Source of the DNA: Cadophora sp. MPI-SDFR-AT-0126
Taxonomy: Eukaryota > Ascomycota > Leotiomycetes > Helotiales > Ploettnerulaceae
Assembly (NCBI GenBank): GCA_020747065.1
Contig: JAGMVK010000014.1
Location: 310,001 to 374,000 of the forward strand
DNA length: 64,000 nt
Direction: 5' to 3'
In this document: positions 1 to 61,362 of the stretch, one piece after another
How the letters are laid out: the number at the start of each line of letters is the position of its first letter
Numbering within the stretch: position 1 is the stretch's first letter
Translations under genes and position numbers: made by a program
Notes under the pieces: generated by a model
The model's input: the letters and a program-made list of their open reading frames with translations, nothing else
Databases searched by the model: none
What the model was told of the DNA's origin: nothing

Positions 1-541
1 TCCACAGTCGGCCGACCAAATCTGGCCATCGATTGGCTGAGATAAGTGGGATCTGAAGATCTTACACGTTGCTGTTTAGGACCATGCTGGTTGGGAGATG
101 ATTCCAGCCGTTCACTTCCTGGTGTGTATGTAGTATGGCATGCAACAACAGCTTTGTTTGGTTAGCAGATTTGACACGGCTCAAAGATCGGCAGTTGTGA
201 AAGTTGCATTAGCTATCACGTAAGACAATGCACTATATTTTCAATCCAAAATGGAAGGTCAAAGTTATCCGCGGTTGCGACTAGTAAATGCAGAAAGCAG
301 GATCCACACACAACGCTAGCTGTTGATCGAGATGACCCAAAAACGGATAAACGACTTGAAATTGATCACCCCGCCTTTGTAGAACTGTGAAACATTACAT
401 ACAATATACAGACAATAAAGTCCTGTCACCTTCATCTGCATCCTCCAAGCTTCTTCATTCTCAAAACTTGTTCTAAGCTTTTCCACTCACATCTCCCTCT
501 CTACAAGCAATCAAGAATCGTCCTCACACATTCATACCATC
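1..541. other. Upstream region of the peptide precursor gene
   Basis: No gene is seen here. The stretch holds a 10-bp palindrome (listed separately) at its left edge and becomes CT-rich between about 420 and 541, as is common in 5' untranslated leaders of filamentous ascomycetes. An ACAATATACA stretch near 401 is only a weak TATA-like candidate. The edge of the window prevents any statement on further cluster genes to the left. Confidence 0.5.
7..16. promoter_or_regulatory. Palindrome GTCGGCCGAC upstream of precursor gene
   Basis: A perfect 10-bp inverted repeat, preceded by A and followed by C, lies about 525 bp before the precursor start codon. The same 12 bases (AGTCGGCCGACC) recur at 2432-2443 upstream of the UstYa-family gene. 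CGG/CCG half-sites in inverted orientation are typical targets of Zn2Cys6 regulators, and AflR-type regulators use TCG..CGA half-sites. A role as a shared operator of the small cluster is inference. Confidence 0.45.
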
Positions 542-1256
542 ATGAAGGTCCAAAATGTGTTCCTTTTGCTAGCCGCCCAGGTGATCACCGGAGTTATATC
601 GGCTCCAGTCGCTGCTCCAGGTAATGATCAAACGCATAGTTCTTCCTTGATGGTTGTGATAACACCATAGCTGACTTCGTCGTTATAGCTGCAGCATTGG
701 AGAAAAAGGACATTGAGAAGAAAGGTGTTGCCGAAGTATGGGCTAATTGGTAAGTTCTAACGTGGCTTGAGAATTACAATTGGATCTGACCCTCAAACCA
801 GGAATCACCCTCCCGGAAAGAAGGTTGAGGCCCCAACAGAGCAACTCGAGAAGAAAGGTGTTGCTGAAGTTTGGGCGAACTGGCAAGTTGTGACATCGTC
901 TTTGAAACTCAATAATATCTGATCTGTCGCGCCAGGAACCATCCTCCGGGAAAAAAGGTGGAGTCAACAGAAACCCTTGAAAAGAAAGGTGTTGCGGAAG
1001 TCTGGGCTAATTGGTAACTTAATCCTTGGCATTGTCAAACAGACACACAGTCTAATTTCAAATTTAGGAATCATCCTGCCGTGGGAAAGGTCGAAGCGTC
1101 GGCAGACCAGCAGCTTGAGAAGAAGGGCGTTGCCGAAGTCTGGGCTAACTGGTGAGTTTCATAGCTGTATGGGCAATAACAGCATCTGACGTGAGTTATA
1201 GGAATCACCCAAACAAGGGGAAAGTCGTGGAAGAATCCGCCGACGAGAGTGAGTAG
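542..1256 (+). CDS. Secreted Kex2-processed repeat peptide precursor (putative dikaritin-type RiPP precursor)
   Basis: The spliced reading gives 145 residues in six exons: 542-620, 689-749, 802-882, 936-1013, 1068-1151, 1202-1256. Residues 1-20 form a hydrophobic signal peptide ending VISA. Four copies of GVAEVWANWNHP follow, each preceded by a dibasic LEKK or IEKK site expected for kexin cleavage. Copies 1 and 2 also carry PPGKK behind the core. Copies 3 and 4 read HPAVGK and HPNKGK. There is no Tyr or Cys in the predicted protein; each copy has two Trp. Every intron after the first splits the second Trp codon of a copy in phase 2, so one exon equals one unit. The intron 883-935 has a GC donor, chosen because the neighbours use GT at the identical place. 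Signal peptide plus dibasic repeats is the hallmark of fungal Kex2-processed repeat proteins and of UstA-like RiPP precursors. The neighbouring UstYa gene favours the RiPP reading. The product itself is unknown. Confidence 0.82.
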
Positions 1257-2668
1257 GTGAGGATTGACCATTATTGGGTGCACATTTTGGAGATACAGCC
1301 GTTGAAGCTTGAATTTGTGGCTGGCTGAAAATGGTTCCAAATTGGCCTTCTAGGGGTGGATTTTTCAAATGCCTTGGCAAGTGTAGAGATGAAATTAACT
1401 GCACTGAGTTCACGTACTTTGTAATTTGACAATTGAAAATCAAAGTTCTGTCTGTCTCTGTGTCATAATATCGCAAGTGATCTACTCAAAAGCTTTCAGC
1501 AGTTCTAATCACAATCAAATCATTGGACAATCCAGTTCGAGCTACTTCTTTATTTGCCTAGGAGGTCTTGTCTCAAGTACGCTGGGTAATTGTGTCACCG
1601 AGCCAGGCATTCAGGTGCTTGATGGAGATGCTGCGATATCATGTCCATACACAAAAATAGATAACGTCAGCTCTGTATACAGCTGAATCGAGTGTACTTC
1701 ATGTTGCTCCCGCAGCAAAGCTAAGCTACATAGCGAAGGTGGATACCTCTATCCATTGCTTACATCCATACCTGAAATGTTGATCTGTGTCTGTCAAGCT
1801 GTAGGGCTGACGTGCTTACTCCCCGCTTCCGCCAAGGCGCATGACCGAACTCTATCTACCGGCCGAGAGTGCACAATATACGGACGTAGCTTGTGCTACC
1901 GATATGCTTATTCCCTCTTACTAAGACGTGTTCCTGACGGTTCATTCTCCACTTTGTTGCATTTACCCGCTGACTTGACGTCTCTTTATGATCGAGTGGC
2001 TACACAAAGGCTTATCTGCATACCCCACGAGCCAATGCCTCGTTACAATCAAGTAGCTCCACGGCGGCTCATTTGCACATACCTAGTAAGCTGAAGTCTC
2101 CGCGCTATGATTGAAACACCACAGAACAGCTTGCTTGCTTGCATATACGAGGACCCATAATGCTTGCATTTGCCTTTTTTTCGCAGTACATTCCGCTTGG
2201 CACCTCCAGTCGCTTAACTCGTTTGCCCATCACCAATCCCTTGCCTGACTTCTCCGACTCGCAGCTTGAGGGATTGTCGCGCATCCAAACGATCATCGCT
2301 ACATTTTTAAAGGGACCACAAAGAGGTAATTTACGCCGACATCGACACCTACTTGTTTTCTGGTTACGCAAAGATGCAGAGTCAGCCAAACTCTAATCTA
2401 CAAATGGCAGGTCGTTAATTCTGATCTGCAGAGTCGGCCGACCCCTACTGACAGTTACAAGAAATCTCAATCGTTTGATTTTGATCTCTCAGGTCATACG
2501 TGATTATACTCCATCCCAGGAATTTCGATGCTTGTACAGCACTTTTCAAATTATTTCTCTGATCAATACTCTAAGTACTTCCAAACACCACATCGACACT
2601 TCTTCTGCCCTCACTCACTGCATGCTCTTCTGAGATCACAGGCGAGATTGCATTTCTATCTACCAACA
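1257..2668. other. Intergenic, precursor to UstYa gene
   Basis: Short open frames occur on both strands but none has a recognisable domain, convincing introns or a plausible signal peptide. The right end carries the second copy of the palindrome and a CT-rich leader before the UstYa start. I see no further peptide repeats in this stretch. Confidence 0.4.
2433..2442. promoter_or_regulatory. Palindrome GTCGGCCGAC upstream of UstYa gene
   Basis: Second perfect copy of the palindrome at 7-16, here about 226 bp before the UstYa start codon, also flanked by A and C. I noticed no equivalent in the 1 kb before the S53 peptidase gene. Position and identity suggest a binding site of a pathway-specific Zn2Cys6 regulator, which is not encoded in this window near the cluster. 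Confidence 0.5.
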
Positions 2669-3722
2669 ATGAATCAATCCGAGTCTCAACAAAATCTTCT
2701 CACCGAAAAAGACCTCGATGAGCACTCAGATGTGGACCTTGAAACAAATGAACTATCATGGAACTCTAAGAAAGAGGGCCAGATGAGTCGAATCAGAAAT
2801 GGTATCAAAGATTCACTTGGTTCTCATGGACAGAGAATTGTACTTCTCTTCTCTGCTCTACTCAATACGATTCTCCTGATTGCCATTCTCGGCGGTGTGA
2901 GGGCAGGAAATGAATGCAATTGTCGAAGTCCTATTGGTAAGTGTAGCGCTTCCTGATAATTCTGTCCCAAGAACAACCTAACACCACTGAAGTTGGCCTT
3001 TTCCCAAATACACTGGAACGCACAATCAGTGACATCACGCCCTTTTCCGTTCGAAGCGATAACAACAGTGCAAGAGATGCGCTCTGGAACAGCCTTGCGA
3101 CTGACCGTGGTGTGGTGGCCGTGGATCAACAAACGATTGCGGAGAAAGGGTTGACAGACACCATTGATTTTCCATGGGACCCTACCAAGAAAGTCTACAT
3201 CGTGATTGCTTTCCACCAATTGCATTGCTTGGTCAGAAATACCTCCAATTTGGCCCTGATATACACATACTGACTCAAAACAGAAGCTCTTGTACCAATC
3301 GTTGACAAGTGTCTACAATGGAGAGACTTTGCAGAAACCAGTCTATGAGCACTGCGTTCATTGCCTGGACCAATTGCGCCAAGACACTCAATGCCAAGCA
3401 GACGACGTAAGCACTCTCAGTCTCCAGTTTGACTGCCAAAAAGCTAACTTCAGACGACTAGAATCTCTGGTATGTAGGAGATAAGAGTACCGGCCAGAAC
3501 CGCCAGTGCAAGGACTTTTCCAAACTTGATGAGTGGGCACTTGAGCGCCATGCCTGCTACAATTTTGAGAGACCTATGAAGCCTGGCCCACTTGACGTTG
3601 AGGCTTTTACGAATTGCCGAGAAAGCTCTCCGTACTTACAAGTTATGAAAGATCATTTTGGATATGGTGAAAATTGGCAAGGAGAATATCCTGCACATGA
3701 AGGGCCAACTTTTGAGGATTAA
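2669..3722 (+). CDS. UstYa-family (DUF3328) membrane protein, putative RiPP-modifying oxidase
   Basis: Four exons (2669-2936, 2993-3231, 3284-3406, 3462-3722) give 296 residues. The start at 2669 lies in a CAACA-ATG context; an earlier in-frame ATG at 2528 would add an unlikely leader. A short cytosolic N-terminus is followed by one membrane segment at about 57-77. Two HxxHC motifs, HQLHC at about 164-168 and HCVHC at 192-196, are the signature of the family and both are intact; an intron falls directly behind the first. The C-terminal part with LWYVGDKSTG, CKDF and ERHACY also matches the family. UstYa and UstYb proteins act in oxidative macrocyclisation of ustiloxin-type peptides, and homologues act on other fungal peptides. 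Here the partner is presumably the precursor gene 1.4 kb upstream, in the same orientation. Whether it cyclises Trp or another residue cannot be told from sequence. Confidence 0.88.
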
Positions 3723-4762: not shown

Positions 4763-6963
4763 ATGGTTTTGTTTGGGAGAATTTTATGTCTCGTCGCCAG
4801 TGTCTCAGGCGCCTTTGCGCTTCCAAAGACCACTGGAAACTTTGTTCTTCACGAAAAACGCGACTTTGAGTCCCAGACATGGAGAAGAGTCTCACGAGCT
4901 CATCCCTCCGAGGCGCTCTCCGTGAAGATCGGACTGGCACAGAGCAACCAGCATCGGGCAGAAGAATATCTGCTCGATGTGTCACATCCACGATCACCAA
5001 ATTTTGGTAAGTACTGAAATGTAACAGCGGATGAAATCAGATTTTGAACATGAATGAAAGCTCATTTCGGAACCATAGGCAAACATTGGACAGCTGAACA
5101 GGTTGCAAACACATTCGCCCCGTCGAAAGAGACGGTCCACCAAGTGACTGAATGGCTTGTTGAATTCGGAATCAGTGCTGAAAGACAAGCTCTCTCACCA
5201 GGTACATCACATTTTCCACATCCAGTAGTCTCCAAGTATCCTAACCAACCCACAGGACGAAATTGGATAATGTTCAATGCAACAGTTCTCGAAGCAGAAG
5301 TACTATTCGATACAGAATACCATTACTTTGAACACCATCCATCAGGCGGTTACCGCATCGCATGCGACCAGTACTCCTTGCCACAGCACGTGCGAAAACA
5401 TGTTGATTTTGCAGTATGTCAAAACCTCCACAGATAGATATCTGATATTCGATACTAATGTAGTAAATCAGATGCCAACAATCCAATTAGAAGGGATGCG
5501 TCCCATCGAAACCATGAATCTGGCAATCACACCTCCCGTCGTCGGCCTCACAGGTCTCGAAAACTGCTACGAACTCATCACCATCGAGTGCCTCCGCGAA
5601 CTCTACCAATTCGGGCCCGGAAACACAAGTCAGCCACCCCTCCAGTCTCAATTATCGCAGAATCAACTGACCCGTCCACAGGCGCCCCAGGAAACGAGAT
5701 TGGGATCCCCGCATTCGGCAGCTACATGTACCCTCCAGATCTCAAACTATTCTTCAAAAACTACACCACGCAGCCCATCCACCCATCCGTCTTCCCAGAA
5801 TTCGTCTCCATCGACGGCGGCGAGCCCTGGAGCGATTCCTTCAACATCGGCAGCGAAGCCACGCTGGACATCCAAACCGCATATTCCATCGTGCATCCGC
5901 AGGGCGTGCGTCTCTACCAGGTCGGCGACATAAACACAGCTTCCGACGGCACGTTCAACACGTTCCTAGATGCTTTGGACGGTTCGTATTGTAGTTATCT
6001 CGGCGGCGACGCTCCGTACTTAGATGCCGTGTATCCCGATCCAGGAGGTGACGGGTATGACGGCCCGCTACAATGCGGTGGCGCGCCAATGAGCAACGTC
6101 CTCTCGTTCTCATATCTCCAGATCGAAGCTGCTCTTCCGGAATCCTACCAGACTCGGCAGTGCCACGAGTGGATGAAGCTCGGCCTGCAAGGCGTGAGCG
6201 TGATATTTGCAAGCGGCGACTCTGGAGTCGCTAATCGCTATAACATAGGCTTGAACAGCAGCTGCTTGACACCTCCTGACGAAGGATCATATATTGATGT
6301 CAACGGGCTTCGCTTTTCTCCTTCCTTCCCATCGAATTGTCCTTGGGTAACAACAGGTAAAATCCTCCTGTCAATCGACCCTTACTCCAGTTTCGGTAAG
6401 CTAATAACAATAAATCAGTTGGCGCAACATTCCTCAAAGACCGCAATATCAGCAACGGTGAAGTGGCTGTAGCTCTCCCATTCGCCCCAAATCCGAAGCG
6501 AGACTACTACTCCGGCGGCGGATTTTCCAATGTATTCGCCCAGCCTGCCTACCAAGCAGATGCCGTAGAGCATTACCTAACCACCTACCCTCCTCCCTAC
6601 GATGATCAGATATACAACAAGAGCGGCCGTGGATTCCCAGATGTCTCAGCGATTGGGCTCAATGTTTCCGTGGTTTTAGGCGGTGGAGTCCAAGTTGCGG
6701 GCGGTACGAGCGCAGCGACACCTATCATAGCAAGCATCGTCACTTTGTTGAACGAAGCACGAATCGCGGCGGGGAAAGGACCGATTGGGTTCCTCAATCC
6801 AATACTTTATGCTCATCCAGAGGCATTCAATGATATCACGGAGGGCGGTAATCCGGGGTGTGGGACGGAGGGATTCAAAGCTCAGCCTGGGTGGGATCCT
6901 GTCACTGGATTAGGAAGCCCCAATTACCCAAAGCTTCGGGAGATATTCCTGAGTTTACCCTAG
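4763..6963 (+). CDS. Secreted S53 family peptidase (sedolisin / tripeptidyl-peptidase type)
   Basis: Six exons (4763-5006, 5079-5201, 5256-5413, 5472-5628, 5682-6356, 6419-6963) give 633 residues, the usual size for fungal sedolisins. A signal peptide (about residues 1-19, ending AFA) is followed by a pro-kumamolisin activation domain (about 35-185) with SPNFGKHW and the APS.E.V..WL region. The catalytic domain holds Glu286 and Asp290 (EATLD), the oxyanion Asp near 408 (SGDSG) and the nucleophile near Ser550 (GGTSAATP). The calcium-site segment DITEG and GWDP.TGLG is at the C-terminus. All key residues are present, so the enzyme should be active outside the cell or in the secretory route at acidic pH. 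It follows the precursor and UstYa genes on the same strand. A role in trimming the kexin-released peptides is possible, but S53 enzymes are also common nutritional proteases. Confidence 0.9.
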
Positions 6964-39317: not shown

Positions 39318-42233
<2,916 letters not shown>

Positions 42234-58361: not shown

Positions 58362-58880
58362 GCAAACGAATGAATGGGTTATGAGGAGACACTCGAGTAG
58401 CTAAATTGCCTGTAAGCGACTGAATATTGGCACCCCAAAAGGATGTTAATGAAACATAACTATGAGAGTATCATATGCCCTTGACCGACAAAAAAGAGCC
58501 AAAAAAAAGTTTCTTCCGGAACGGGGAATTGAACCCCGGTCTCCTGCGCACATCTGTGAACTGTTGTTTAGACAGATCATGAGAGGCAGAAATGCTAGCC
58601 ACTACACCATTCCGGATGATTGATTTGGTCGATAAAGAGTAATGTCTTATTTTATTACATCTTTGTGGGAGTAAGGTGGATTTTTTTTTTTTCAGTTGCG
58701 TAACTTACATGTAGGGTTGAGTTTAGCGAGGGGAGGTGGGTACAGAGCAGGGGTCTTGTCGGAGATTCAAGAAGTCCTACCTTCTGCGGCATGTATTTAC
58801 GCTTGGAAGCAGATATGAAAACACTCAGTTGTCAATAAAGAATGACGGTCGTTTGAAGGTTGTGATTTACAATCTGGCGC
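58362..58880. other. Intergenic with tRNA gene
   Basis: Apart from the tRNA-Glu gene at 58514-58616 this stretch holds a T homopolymer near 58681 and no coding sequence that I can support. Confidence 0.6.
58514..58616 (-). tRNA. tRNA-Glu (anticodon CTC) with a 31-nt intron
   Basis: Read on the minus strand, the acceptor arm TCCGGAA pairs fully with TTCCGGA, followed by discriminator A. The T arm is CGGGG-TTCAATT-CCCCG. The anticodon stem TCTGC pairs with GCAGG (one G-U), with loop C-T-CTC-A-C, so the anticodon is CTC and decodes GAG. The intron, 58549-58579 on the plus strand, sits in the canonical place one base behind the anticodon. The D arm GGTGTAGTGGCTAGCAT and the T arm can serve as the internal A and B boxes of RNA polymerase III. 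Confidence 0.92.
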
Positions 58881-60773
58881 TCAATGGATCACAAAACTCC
58901 TCATCTCCTCAACCCCACCACCTGGCCCTCTCATTGCCTCCCCATACATGAAACCATCTACATACGCCTCACCCACACAAACATATCCGTCTTCATCCCT
59001 CCTCCTTCGTAAAATAACGGGACACCTGCATCCAAGCAGAATACAAACTAAATCACCAACCTCCGCGCCGGCCGGAGCAAGACCTACAAGATTTCCCTGC
59101 GAGACAAACAATCTTCTTCGATTCATCGTCAGACCTGCTGAGAGTATGGCAGATAATTGGTCTTTCTCTTCCTGATCTCCATTATCAATAAACGGATCCT
59201 CTTCCTCAGAAGTAGCCAACGAGGGTGTCGACCCAGAAAGTTGAAACAAGCTTTGGCCCGATGCCGTACTAGACCTCGATGGCGGATCCAACCTCAACAT
59301 ATCCGATCCCTCAAGCATCTCATCCGACAGCGCGAAGATAGCATCGAGTTTCCTCACATACACATTCTCATCATCATGTTCCCAATTTCCACACGATATC
59401 GTGCGACCGAAGACAGCTTGCGAAGCAACACTGTTCGAGTGTGAACTGACGAAGATATTCCACCAGTCATGAAGCGCATTCAATTTAGGCGCTACTTCGC
59501 TCGGTGGTCGTCGAGGGTTCTGTCTATATGCCATGCCAACGCTCTCAATGGTGTCGAGAATGAAGCCTGAGGCTTTGAGCACGTAGCCGTTGGAAAGAAA
59601 CTCAGCGTTTGCGAGGCTGGAGCCGGACGCTGTGAAGGGGGGTTGGTGGTGATGAAGACCAACGATCGTAGCGCCTGATTTTGGGGGTGGACGAGTCCAG
59701 TCAGGTGTCCAGGAGGGTAGAGAGTATTGGTCGGTGTCGTGCTGCTTGACGCAGATTACGTCGAGGCGGTTGGAAACGGTGATTATGTGGTGCGCGGTGT
59801 GGGTGTAGACTTCGCGCATGGAGTGCGAGTAATCTATGATACCGAAGGTATCGACTGATTCTGAGACGCCCACTAAGGCATAAACTTTGTCTTTTGGATC
59901 TGTTGACAATTTGCTTTTGTGAGATAAAAGGAGTTCGAGGAGGGGTGGTGCAGAGACGTTTGGTGAGAAGCGGGAGAGTTGCAGACCACGAGGACCGCCA
60001 TGTGTGAGGGTCCATATAAAGGAAGGGCGTTTGTAGAATAAAGATTGGAGCTCCTCGCTGGCAGCTTTCAGTAGATCACAGACTTTGTCCAATTCTGTCC
60101 AGGAGATCTCGTCGTCGCCGCAGTAGACAGTTGCGTTTCGGGCACTGCTGACTTCTTGAATGACCCAGATCCGCCACCAGTACTGCCTCCGAAATAGCCT
60201 CACCAGTGCCTCGATTCTTTCTTTCCTCTCCGGATTCCCAACAAGATGTCTAACTCCGTCGACTGAAGCACAAGCATTCAAGTCACGTGCAAGCTGCATT
60301 GCAGCTTTACTCCGGTTGTTTTCCGGTCCCAGAGACACAGCAACACTCTCAGCATGCTGATAAATAGCTCGCATATTCGCCGTCTGCAGATTCCTCTCGG
60401 GGATATCTTCTTGATTGATACAAATAGCATCAACCCACATCACCAAATCCTGCTCTCCGGGCTTGGGACGCAGGCGTTGAAGTGCATGTCTGAGATTGGG
60501 GGTAATGGAAACATGTTCTTGATCGACGGCTATGAGCTGGGAGCCGCTTCGCTCGCCCCATACGTAGGAAAGTGCTATGTAGGGAGGCGCCTCTGCGAAC
60601 GTGGTGTGGAAGAGGGAGCACCGGATTGGCCATGTGGAGTCTGGGGAGGGAGAGGCATGAAGTACGAGGAGCCGAAGGGCGCCGCTTTTGGTGTTATCTA
60701 AAGGTTCGTATTTGTATCTGCGGTAGCACGCTTGTGCTTTCTCGAGAGAGTTCTGGGGGGATACCGGCTTCAT
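58881..60773 (-). CDS. HET-domain (heterokaryon incompatibility) protein
   Basis: An intron-free frame of 630 residues from the ATG at 60773 (MKPVSPQNS). The frame stays open to 60914, which would add 47 residues; I prefer 60773 because the extra part looks like leader and its ATG lacks a purine at -3. The HET domain occupies roughly residues 25-260. Its signature blocks are YIALSYVWGE, the segment VDAICINQED, and WWRIWVIQEV. The C-terminal half has the DPKDKVYALVGVSE motif and the GFILDTIESVG segment typical of stand-alone HET proteins. HET domains trigger cell death when incompatible strains fuse. The gene faces away from the broken HET gene on its right and lies next to the STAND-N/SNARE gene. 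Confidence 0.92.
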   Translation of the reverse strand: MKPVSPQNSLEKAQACYRRYKYEPLDNTKSGALRLLVLHASPSPDSTWPIRCSLFHTTFAEAPPYIALSYVWGERSGSQLIAVDQEHVSITPNLRHALQRLRPKPGEQDLVMWVDAICINQEDIPERNLQTANMRAIYQHAESVAVSLGPENNRSKAAMQLARDLNACASVDGVRHLVGNPERKERIEALVRLFRRQYWWRIWVIQEVSSARNATVYCGDDEISWTELDKVCDLLKAASEELQSLFYKRPSFIWTLTHGGPRGLQLSRFSPNVSAPPLLELLLSHKSKLSTDPKDKVYALVGVSESVDTFGIIDYSHSMREVYTHTAHHIITVSNRLDVICVKQHDTDQYSLPSWTPDWTRPPPKSGATIVGLHHHQPPFTASGSSLANAEFLSNGYVLKASGFILDTIESVGMAYRQNPRRPPSEVAPKLNALHDWWNIFVSSHSNSVASQAVFGRTISCGNWEHDDENVYVRKLDAIFALSDEMLEGSDMLRLDPPSRSSTASGQSLFQLSGSTPSLATSEEEDPFIDNGDQEEKDQLSAILSAGLTMNRRRLFVSQGNLVGLAPAGAEVGDLVCILLGCRCPVILRRRRDEDGYVCVGEAYVDGFMYGEAMRGPGGGVEEMRSFVIH

Positions 60774-61362
60774 GTTCTCGGATGCTGAGGGTGCTGTGTT
60801 GGCGATGGAGCGGGCTAAGCGGGTGGGATGTAGACGAGCAAAAGGTAACAGACCTATGAGCACAAACTTGTAGTCGAGGATCCTGCACCATCTGATGGGC
60901 GCTTTAATACGCATTTATTGATCTTCATAAAGTCCGACGAGAACTGAGGTTGATGCCCAGCGGTCAGATTTCATTTTGACATAAGCATTACACGTGATCT
61001 CAGGGGTACCAGGACAAGGATCCATGGTTCTTGGTTCTCTCGAGGCAACTGCTTCTCGCGGCGAATTAAGGCGCCCAAGTCTGATAGGTACTGAACCATC
61101 TGCTTTCATCTGTGAGAGGAATCATGTTGAGGTGCAGCTCGTTTCCTGTCGTACAAAACCTGGCCAATTGGATACAAGTACTCCTGTGCCGTCAAATGGT
61201 GGAGCCTTAGCCTTACGACTTCTGACTTCCTCAAGCTCTCAAACGGCATTGAATGGGACGGTGTGTTCTGCTGAGAATTCTACCTTCATCCTCTCCCTTG
61301 GCCAGCATACAATCGCTTGATCAAACCATTATTTAGCTTGGCATCTACCATCGGCGTCGACT
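60774..61362. other. Intergenic between divergent HET genes
   Basis: The common promoter region of the intact HET gene (minus) and the broken HET gene (plus). A plus-strand frame at 60994-61320 has no recognised content. I see no regulatory site that can be named. Confidence 0.45.

Follow-up and report, generated by a model that had tools for sequence, protein, structure and literature searches.

Near the left edge of the window, by which the whole analysed stretch of 64,000 nucleotides is meant (C6:310001-374000 of the 54-Mb assembly of Cadophora sp. MPI-SDFR-AT-0126), lies a gene for a secretory-type repeat protein whose four identical cores contain Trp and no Tyr, with a gene of the UstYa (DUF3328) oxidase family on either side. 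It is quite likely that this protein gives rise to a dikaritin-type RiPP that the UstYa pair oxidises, and there is nearly an even chance that the product contains a bond to Trp. The locus would represent a compact system, probably of three genes (UstYa-1, precursor, UstYa-2), in which the chemistry of a UstYa pair is applied to a Tyr-free, Trp-rich core.

Architecture of the precursor gene and conservation of its core

The precursor gene, its exons and its core copies, the latter mapped by hand from the exons, are arranged as follows:

542-1256, plus strand: precursor gene, six exons that splice to 438 nt (145 aa plus stop)
542..620, plus strand: exon 1, signal-peptide-like region MKVQNVFLLLAAQVITGVISAPVAAP
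689..749, plus strand: exon 2, first KKGVAEVWAN, ends at the TG of the second Trp codon
802..882, plus strand: exon 3, 81 nt, one repeat cassette
936..1013, plus strand: exon 4, 78 nt, one repeat cassette
1068..1151, plus strand: exon 5, 84 nt, one repeat cassette
1202..1256, plus strand: exon 6, includes the stop
718..811 (718-749 and 802-811), plus strand: core copy 1, KKGVAEVWANWNHP
851..945 (851-882 and 936-945), plus strand: core copy 2, with intron 883-935 inside
982..1077 (982-1013 and 1068-1077), plus strand: core copy 3
1120..1211 (1120-1151 and 1202-1211), plus strand: core copy 4

The original prediction of six exons and a 145-residue protein with four KK-preceded copies and neither Tyr nor Cys was borne out to the base by splicing: the spliced protein contains four exact copies of KKGVAEVWANWNHP, eight Trp, no Tyr and no Cys. 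Its N-terminus, MKVQNVFLLLAAQVITGVISA, is signal-peptide-like as judged by eye, and the near-identical repeats behind dibasic sites that distinguish KEPs are present, all four sites being KK. The introns measure 68, 52, 53, 54 and 50 nt; four are of the GT-AG type, while the one inside core copy 2 is GC-AG. Introns 2 to 5 each interrupt a core at the identical point, between the TG and the G of the second Trp codon. Since the lengths of the inner exons are all multiples of three, each corresponds to one cassette, and inner exons could be gained, lost or skipped with the frame intact. An intron inside every core, together with six short exons, suggests a route by which such precursors escape annotation; no protein from MPI-SDFR-AT-0126 occurs among the matches listed for the precursor, although the UstYa-2 of this strain is annotated. 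For comparison with culture extracts, linear reference masses ([M+H]+) were computed as 1533.7233 for GVAEVWANWNHPPG, 1379.6491 for GVAEVWANWNHP and 924.4111 for WANWNHP, with a computed drop of 2.0157 per ring formed.

Repeat arrays were sought as at least three similar 9-residue stretches behind dibasic sites. Within 30 kb around the precursor, only the array itself and its echo in another frame were recovered; the remaining 44 kb of the window yielded no group, and one group came from a total of 150 kb around five loci elsewhere in the genome. With the precursor as the query against the whole genome, no second locus was found at E up to 1.

At least 11 nucleotide changes separate the four core units. 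Every one of them is silent, and the six pairwise comparisons comprise 33 silent and 0 replacement differences. The chance of an all-silent outcome without selection is about 1e-6, the more generous, transition-only fraction being used. The four cores are under strong purifying selection, and copying from repeat to repeat alone would not be expected to purge replacement changes only.

Relatives of the precursor number five by single-sequence search and 11 by a profile search that scored 7,993 candidates, namely those sharing most words. They include hypothetical proteins of Cadophora gregata f. sp. sojae and Cadophora sp. M221, and those with a species assignment come from Cadophora only. Among viral contigs, 59 stretches fit the pattern, with no confirmed relative among them. 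Conservation of the repeat in related genomes had been set beforehand as a condition of the prediction, and AEVWANW proved to be retained in 22 of the 23 core-like repeats of the window protein and the 11 profile matches (18 of 19 outside the window), a table that keeps P0010, which has no core, and P0011 (E 5.3). The sole exception is the decayed terminal repeat of P0001. The residues after AEVWANW differ among the relatives (NHP, NWVG or NWFPG), and the spacers between repeats vary, unlike the core; later repeats of the relatives are preceded by KR, whereas the window precursor has KK throughout. Within the core, A, E, V and N show the same invariance as W; apart from the two Trp, no aromatic residue is fixed, which makes Trp the natural candidate for the modified residue.

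The conceptual translations of P0003, P0004, P0006, P0007, P0008, P0009 and P0011 stop or derail directly after WANW. These read like translations of unspliced DNA, and the same intron position is implied in the relatives. The only Tyr that adjoins a core is found in P0008 (WANWYI), and it is best read as part of an unspliced intron because it is located where the intron would begin.

The flanking UstYa genes and their promoters

The oxidase genes and the copies of a palindrome in their promoters are located as follows:

C6:308429-309575, minus strand: UstYa-1, just left of the window edge; three exons, 345 aa, HQLHC and HVDHC, PF11807 at 182.7 bits
2669..3722, plus strand: UstYa-2, exons 2669-2936, 2993-3231, 3284-3406 and 3462-3722; 296 aa, HQLHC and HCVHC, PF11807 at 79.2 bits
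C6:309981-309990, no strand: palindrome GTCGGCCGAC in the divergent promoter of UstYa-1 and the precursor, just outside the left edge of the window
7..16, no strand: palindrome GTCGGCCGAC in the same divergent promoter, candidate regulator site
2433..2442, no strand: palindrome GTCGGCCGAC, shortly 5' of the UstYa-2 start codon (2669)

UstYa-1 is divergent to the precursor, its start lying 966 bp upstream of the precursor start codon, and UstYa-2 starts 1,412 bp past the precursor stop, so that the UstYa/DUF3328 gene expected beside a dikaritin precursor occurs once on each side. Both score above the PF11807 (UstYa, DUF3328) cut-off of 25 bits; UstYa-2 is a divergent family member, and its model is identical to the public BKA64DRAFT_645021 of the same strain. 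UstYa matches occupy 34 places in the genome when joined over 1-kb gaps and 26 groups over 10-kb gaps. For UstYa genes to lie by chance within 3.5 kb on each side of the precursor, the probability ranges from about 5e-6 (34 genes) to 2e-5 (68 genes), the latter figure assuming that the six-frame search missed half of the UstYa genes, as it indeed missed UstYa-2. The Pfam scans took in three spliced proteins and 37 chosen open frames, and an intron-split tailoring gene could thus have been missed.

The HxxHC(x)nHxxHC metal motif is intact in both oxidases. A search that scored the 7,998 candidates sharing most words found 46 UstYa relatives, of which 26 distinct proteins were aligned; the HxxHC motifs are invariant in the alignment of 21 UstYa-1 relatives, which excludes the window's own UstYa-1, and in that of 16 proteins headed by UstYa-2, with 11 proteins common to both. 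In CctR, the motif forms a two-copper centre (PMC12435403). Models of P0012, the UstYa-1 orthologue of Clarireedia, and of UstYa-2 are of low confidence (mean pLDDT 58.1 and 44.5, respectively); they tentatively show two long helices, each bearing one HxxHC motif and both preceded by a hydrophobic helix at the N-terminus, a layout that matches the one described for CctR (PMC12435403).

The pairing of oxidase and precursor recurs in Cadophora sp. M221, in which the UstYa-1 orthologue IFR05_001195 (80%) and the precursor IFR05_001196 have consecutive tags, both on contigs of 142,761 bases. In Clarireedia jacksonii, the UstYa-1 (88%) and UstYa-2 orthologues, ACMFMG_004690 and ACMFMG_004692, are two tags apart; the precursor searches did not retrieve the gene that separates the two, a result that speaks against full conservation of the trio. 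A further UstYa-1 relative occurs in Phaeoacremonium minimum (71%), orthologues are also present in Rhexocercosporidium and Leptodontidium, and no protein named for C. gregata is among the UstYa matches listed. Separately, P0013, from a record named Agyrium rufum, resembles UstYa-1 at 87%, closer than the 80% of M221, and either horizontal transfer or a mixed assembly may account for this.

The two GTCGGCCGAC copies of the divergent promoter are 26 bp apart, and the 10-mers common to both intergenic regions all overlap in one 12-mer around this palindrome. It occurs at 34 sites in the genome, compared with 37 for a reversed-pattern control; three of the 34 are in these two promoters, and no pair of sites elsewhere is closer than 66 kb. 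For three sites to fall in the two regions, a Poisson model gives a probability of 6e-10, or 6e-7 when all 1,024 such palindromes are allowed for, the motif having been spotted by eye and the statistics computed afterwards. Another palindromic 10-mer, ATTACGTAAT, has three copies spanning 453 bp within the 94 kb of C6:280001-374000; clustering is thus not unique to GTCGGCCGAC, which is to be taken as a candidate and not as proof. Judged from its placement, GTCGGCCGAC is a strong candidate for a mark of co-regulation of UstYa-1, the precursor and UstYa-2.

Relation to known systems and competing explanations

Dikaritins are RiPPs that derive from Kex2 repeat proteins and are cyclised by UstYa homologues (PMC10512285). 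With ustiloxin, phomopsin and asperipin-2a, the present locus shares the secretory multi-core precursor, the dibasic sites and the adjoining UstYa/DUF3328 genes. It differs in its Tyr-free core, in that 222 kb separate UstYa-1 from the closest tyrosinase match on the contig, and in that the whole genome has no S41 peptidase match at the sensitivity used; the combination of core Tyr and clustered tyrosinase that marks the ustiloxin/phomopsin subgroup is absent. The window precursor itself has an intron in every core. From its gene content, the locus would work like a dikaritin cluster; since the defining feature of the class is a cyclised product, which here is a prediction, membership is graded as probable.

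As its N-terminus suggests, the precursor would enter the secretory pathway, where two membrane-anchored, copper-dependent oxidases of the UstYa type would oxidise the repeated core (x)VAEVWANWN, a side-chain ring most likely being closed with the Trp indole as the aromatic partner. By analogy with the class, a Kex2-type protease would cut after the KK that precedes each core, and further peptidases would trim the acidic spacers. Kex2 cuts KK less well than KR, and KK at all four sites counts against the reading as a Kex2-processed RiPP. In its fullest form, the proposal is tentative and has somewhat less than an even chance: the two UstYa oxidases would build a tyrosinase-independent, Trp-centred ring on AEVWANWN, in a Tyr-free dikaritin branch in Helotiales with an exon-cassette precursor whose cores are assembled by splicing. 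The ring may join Trp to Trp, or Trp to a neighbouring aliphatic residue, Asn or His.

The prior literature bears on how far such a core departs from the class. In a survey of Kex2 repeat precursors, 1,758 of 7,878 have DUF3328 neighbours, and the repeated sequences of those 1,758 contain Tyr in 65.6% and Trp in 20.5% (PMC7329392); about a third are therefore Tyr-free, and one type (P-3) has W with P. UstYa-linked precursors with Trp repeats, and Tyr-free ones, are thus already on record in these counts. Victorin is reported to be cyclised between Phe and Leu side chains (PMC9233826), so that Tyr-free cores are not unprecedented. The original view that characterised dikaritins usually rely on Tyr, with the expectation that a Tyr-free core would extend the class, accordingly holds less strongly than it was first put.

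Victorin resembles the present system in its multi-core precursor and in a linkage without Tyr; however, its core is another one and its aromatic partner is Phe, whereas the window core fixes only Trp (PMC9233826). The epichloecyclins (GigA), from a fungus that lives in association with plants, likewise derive from a secretory precursor with four repeats and Kex2 sites, but a Tyr-Ile linkage is reported for them, and their core is unrelated. The benzofuranoindoline fungal RiPPs of Nie et al. 2025 are, by title, built on an indole-derived ring system and reportedly join Trp with a phenol; the window core has no Tyr. The core strings of the precursor were not found in the literature searched, supplements aside.

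The UstYa pair might also act without a Trp cross-link, by hydroxylating, desaturating or halogenating the core or by joining Asn, Glu or Val, with the indoles left free. We regard this as unlikely though by no means negligible, and its probability forms part of that given to a UstYa-modified RiPP. Roles in hydroxylation, halogenation, isomerisation and macrocyclisation (PMC12435403), and in forming the dehydroamino acids of phomopsin (PMC10512285), have been ascribed to DUF3328 proteins, and the invariance of A, E, V and N alongside W would suit such chemistry; however, Trp alone of the aromatics is fixed in the core, and an aromatic side chain takes part in closing every ring reported for ustiloxin, phomopsin, asperipin-2a, epichloecyclin and victorin. 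An improbable explanation is that a linear, Kex2-cut secreted signalling or pheromone-like peptide is made that has no connection with the UstYa neighbours. Closely spaced Trp is typical of some Kex2 repeat types, including yeast mating factors, and W is found in 24.5% of precursors without DUF3328 neighbours versus 20.5% of those with them (PMC7329392), so that Trp by itself is no pointer to UstYa chemistry. Yet only one of 138 type G-2 precursors, 121 of which are annotated fungal pheromones, has a DUF3328 neighbour in Table 2 of the same source, the pairing with UstYa is repeated in a second species, and the rare GTCGGCCGAC motif is common to the promoters.

The pheromone variant of this explanation was put low because the genome has a separate precursor of that type, which a generic tandem pheromone query found: a 182-aa open frame on C23 (L022:1489-2037, minus strand; about C23:2,887,045-2,887,593) with seven RCGHxGQPCG copies, KR sites and dipeptide spacers. 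In alpha-pheromone precursors, the cores are of the GQPC type and contain Cys, and they are accompanied by KR sites and STE13 dipeptides. Ascomycete precursors of this kind share the signal peptide and Kex2 repeats with the window protein, whose core GVAEVWANWNHP stands behind KK, has no Cys and is not preceded by X-A or X-P (STE13-type) dipeptides after the KK, in contrast to the Cys-containing cores and KR sites of the C23 gene. Searches with the C-x3-G-Q-x-C and W-C-x3-G-Q-x-C patterns gave 258, 1 and 4 matches, scattered only, among the matches listed. Some Kex2 repeat proteins are surface-active, and the last repeat of P0001 has decayed; a structural or surface repeat protein, or a chance or decayed open frame, is nevertheless hardly credible given that the cores differ silently only, that they are conserved across species and that UstYa genes lie on both sides. 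The preferred reading thus remains that of a UstYa-modified RiPP precursor: the predicted RiPP-type precursor, of a family absent from the literature searched, is supported as regards the flanking oxidase genes, the conserved core and the lack of Tyr, and stays conditional as regards product chemistry.

Peptidases, contrast loci and further genes

Two peptidase genes flank the unit:

About 4763..6963, plus strand: sedolisin (S53) peptidase gene, start by eye, exons partly modelled; candidate trimming protease
C6:305631-307928 (L009:5631-7928), minus strand: M1 aminopeptidase gene, adjoins UstYa-1

The C-terminal exon of the S53 gene (6400-6960) matches tripeptidyl-peptidase 1 (E 2e-35), while neither PDB nor Pfam has a match to the upstream frame 5459-6469. 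Of seven neighbouring frames compared with NCBIfam, only the M1 frame was matched. From its annotation, either peptidase is a possible trimming protease. No further copy of GTCGGCCGAC was found in C6:300001-320000, and the flanking peptidase genes are therefore without the motif; as sure cluster members, they were set aside and remain candidates. Another frame nearby, L009:3563-4528, is subtilase-like by eye, with no profile or PDB match.

Tyrosinase matches in the genome number 43; those close to a match already retained were removed by hand, which left 22 places. Four of the 26 UstYa groups have a tyrosinase match within 10 kb. As a contrast, 30 kb was scanned for repeats at each of these four groups and at one UstYa-rich locus (five of 26 groups, 15 stretches). 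One further precursor was recovered, at about C5:1,076,283-1,076,480, with four KR-flanked repeats (N/S)PVQTIE(D/Y)Y; beside it lie a UstYa match (C5:1077344) and, at C5:1070942-1074635, tyrosinase matches. The repeat scan found no precursor at the other four of the five loci. By its sequence, this stretch of C5 appears to be a Tyr-type dikaritin-like locus, unlike the Tyr-free, tyrosinase-free unit, a contrast that amounts to one example and no rule.

Elsewhere in the genome, nine UstYa matches lie within 9 kb at C20:135734-144359, where the simple scan found no Kex2 repeat precursor. Within the window, two peroxidase-domain frames about 1.1 kb apart (39958-42233) may be a duplicated or split gene. 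A tRNA at 58514-58616, matched by Rfam and not by ARAGORN as run, perhaps contains an intron, and it is followed by a HET-domain (heterokaryon incompatibility) gene at 58881-60914.
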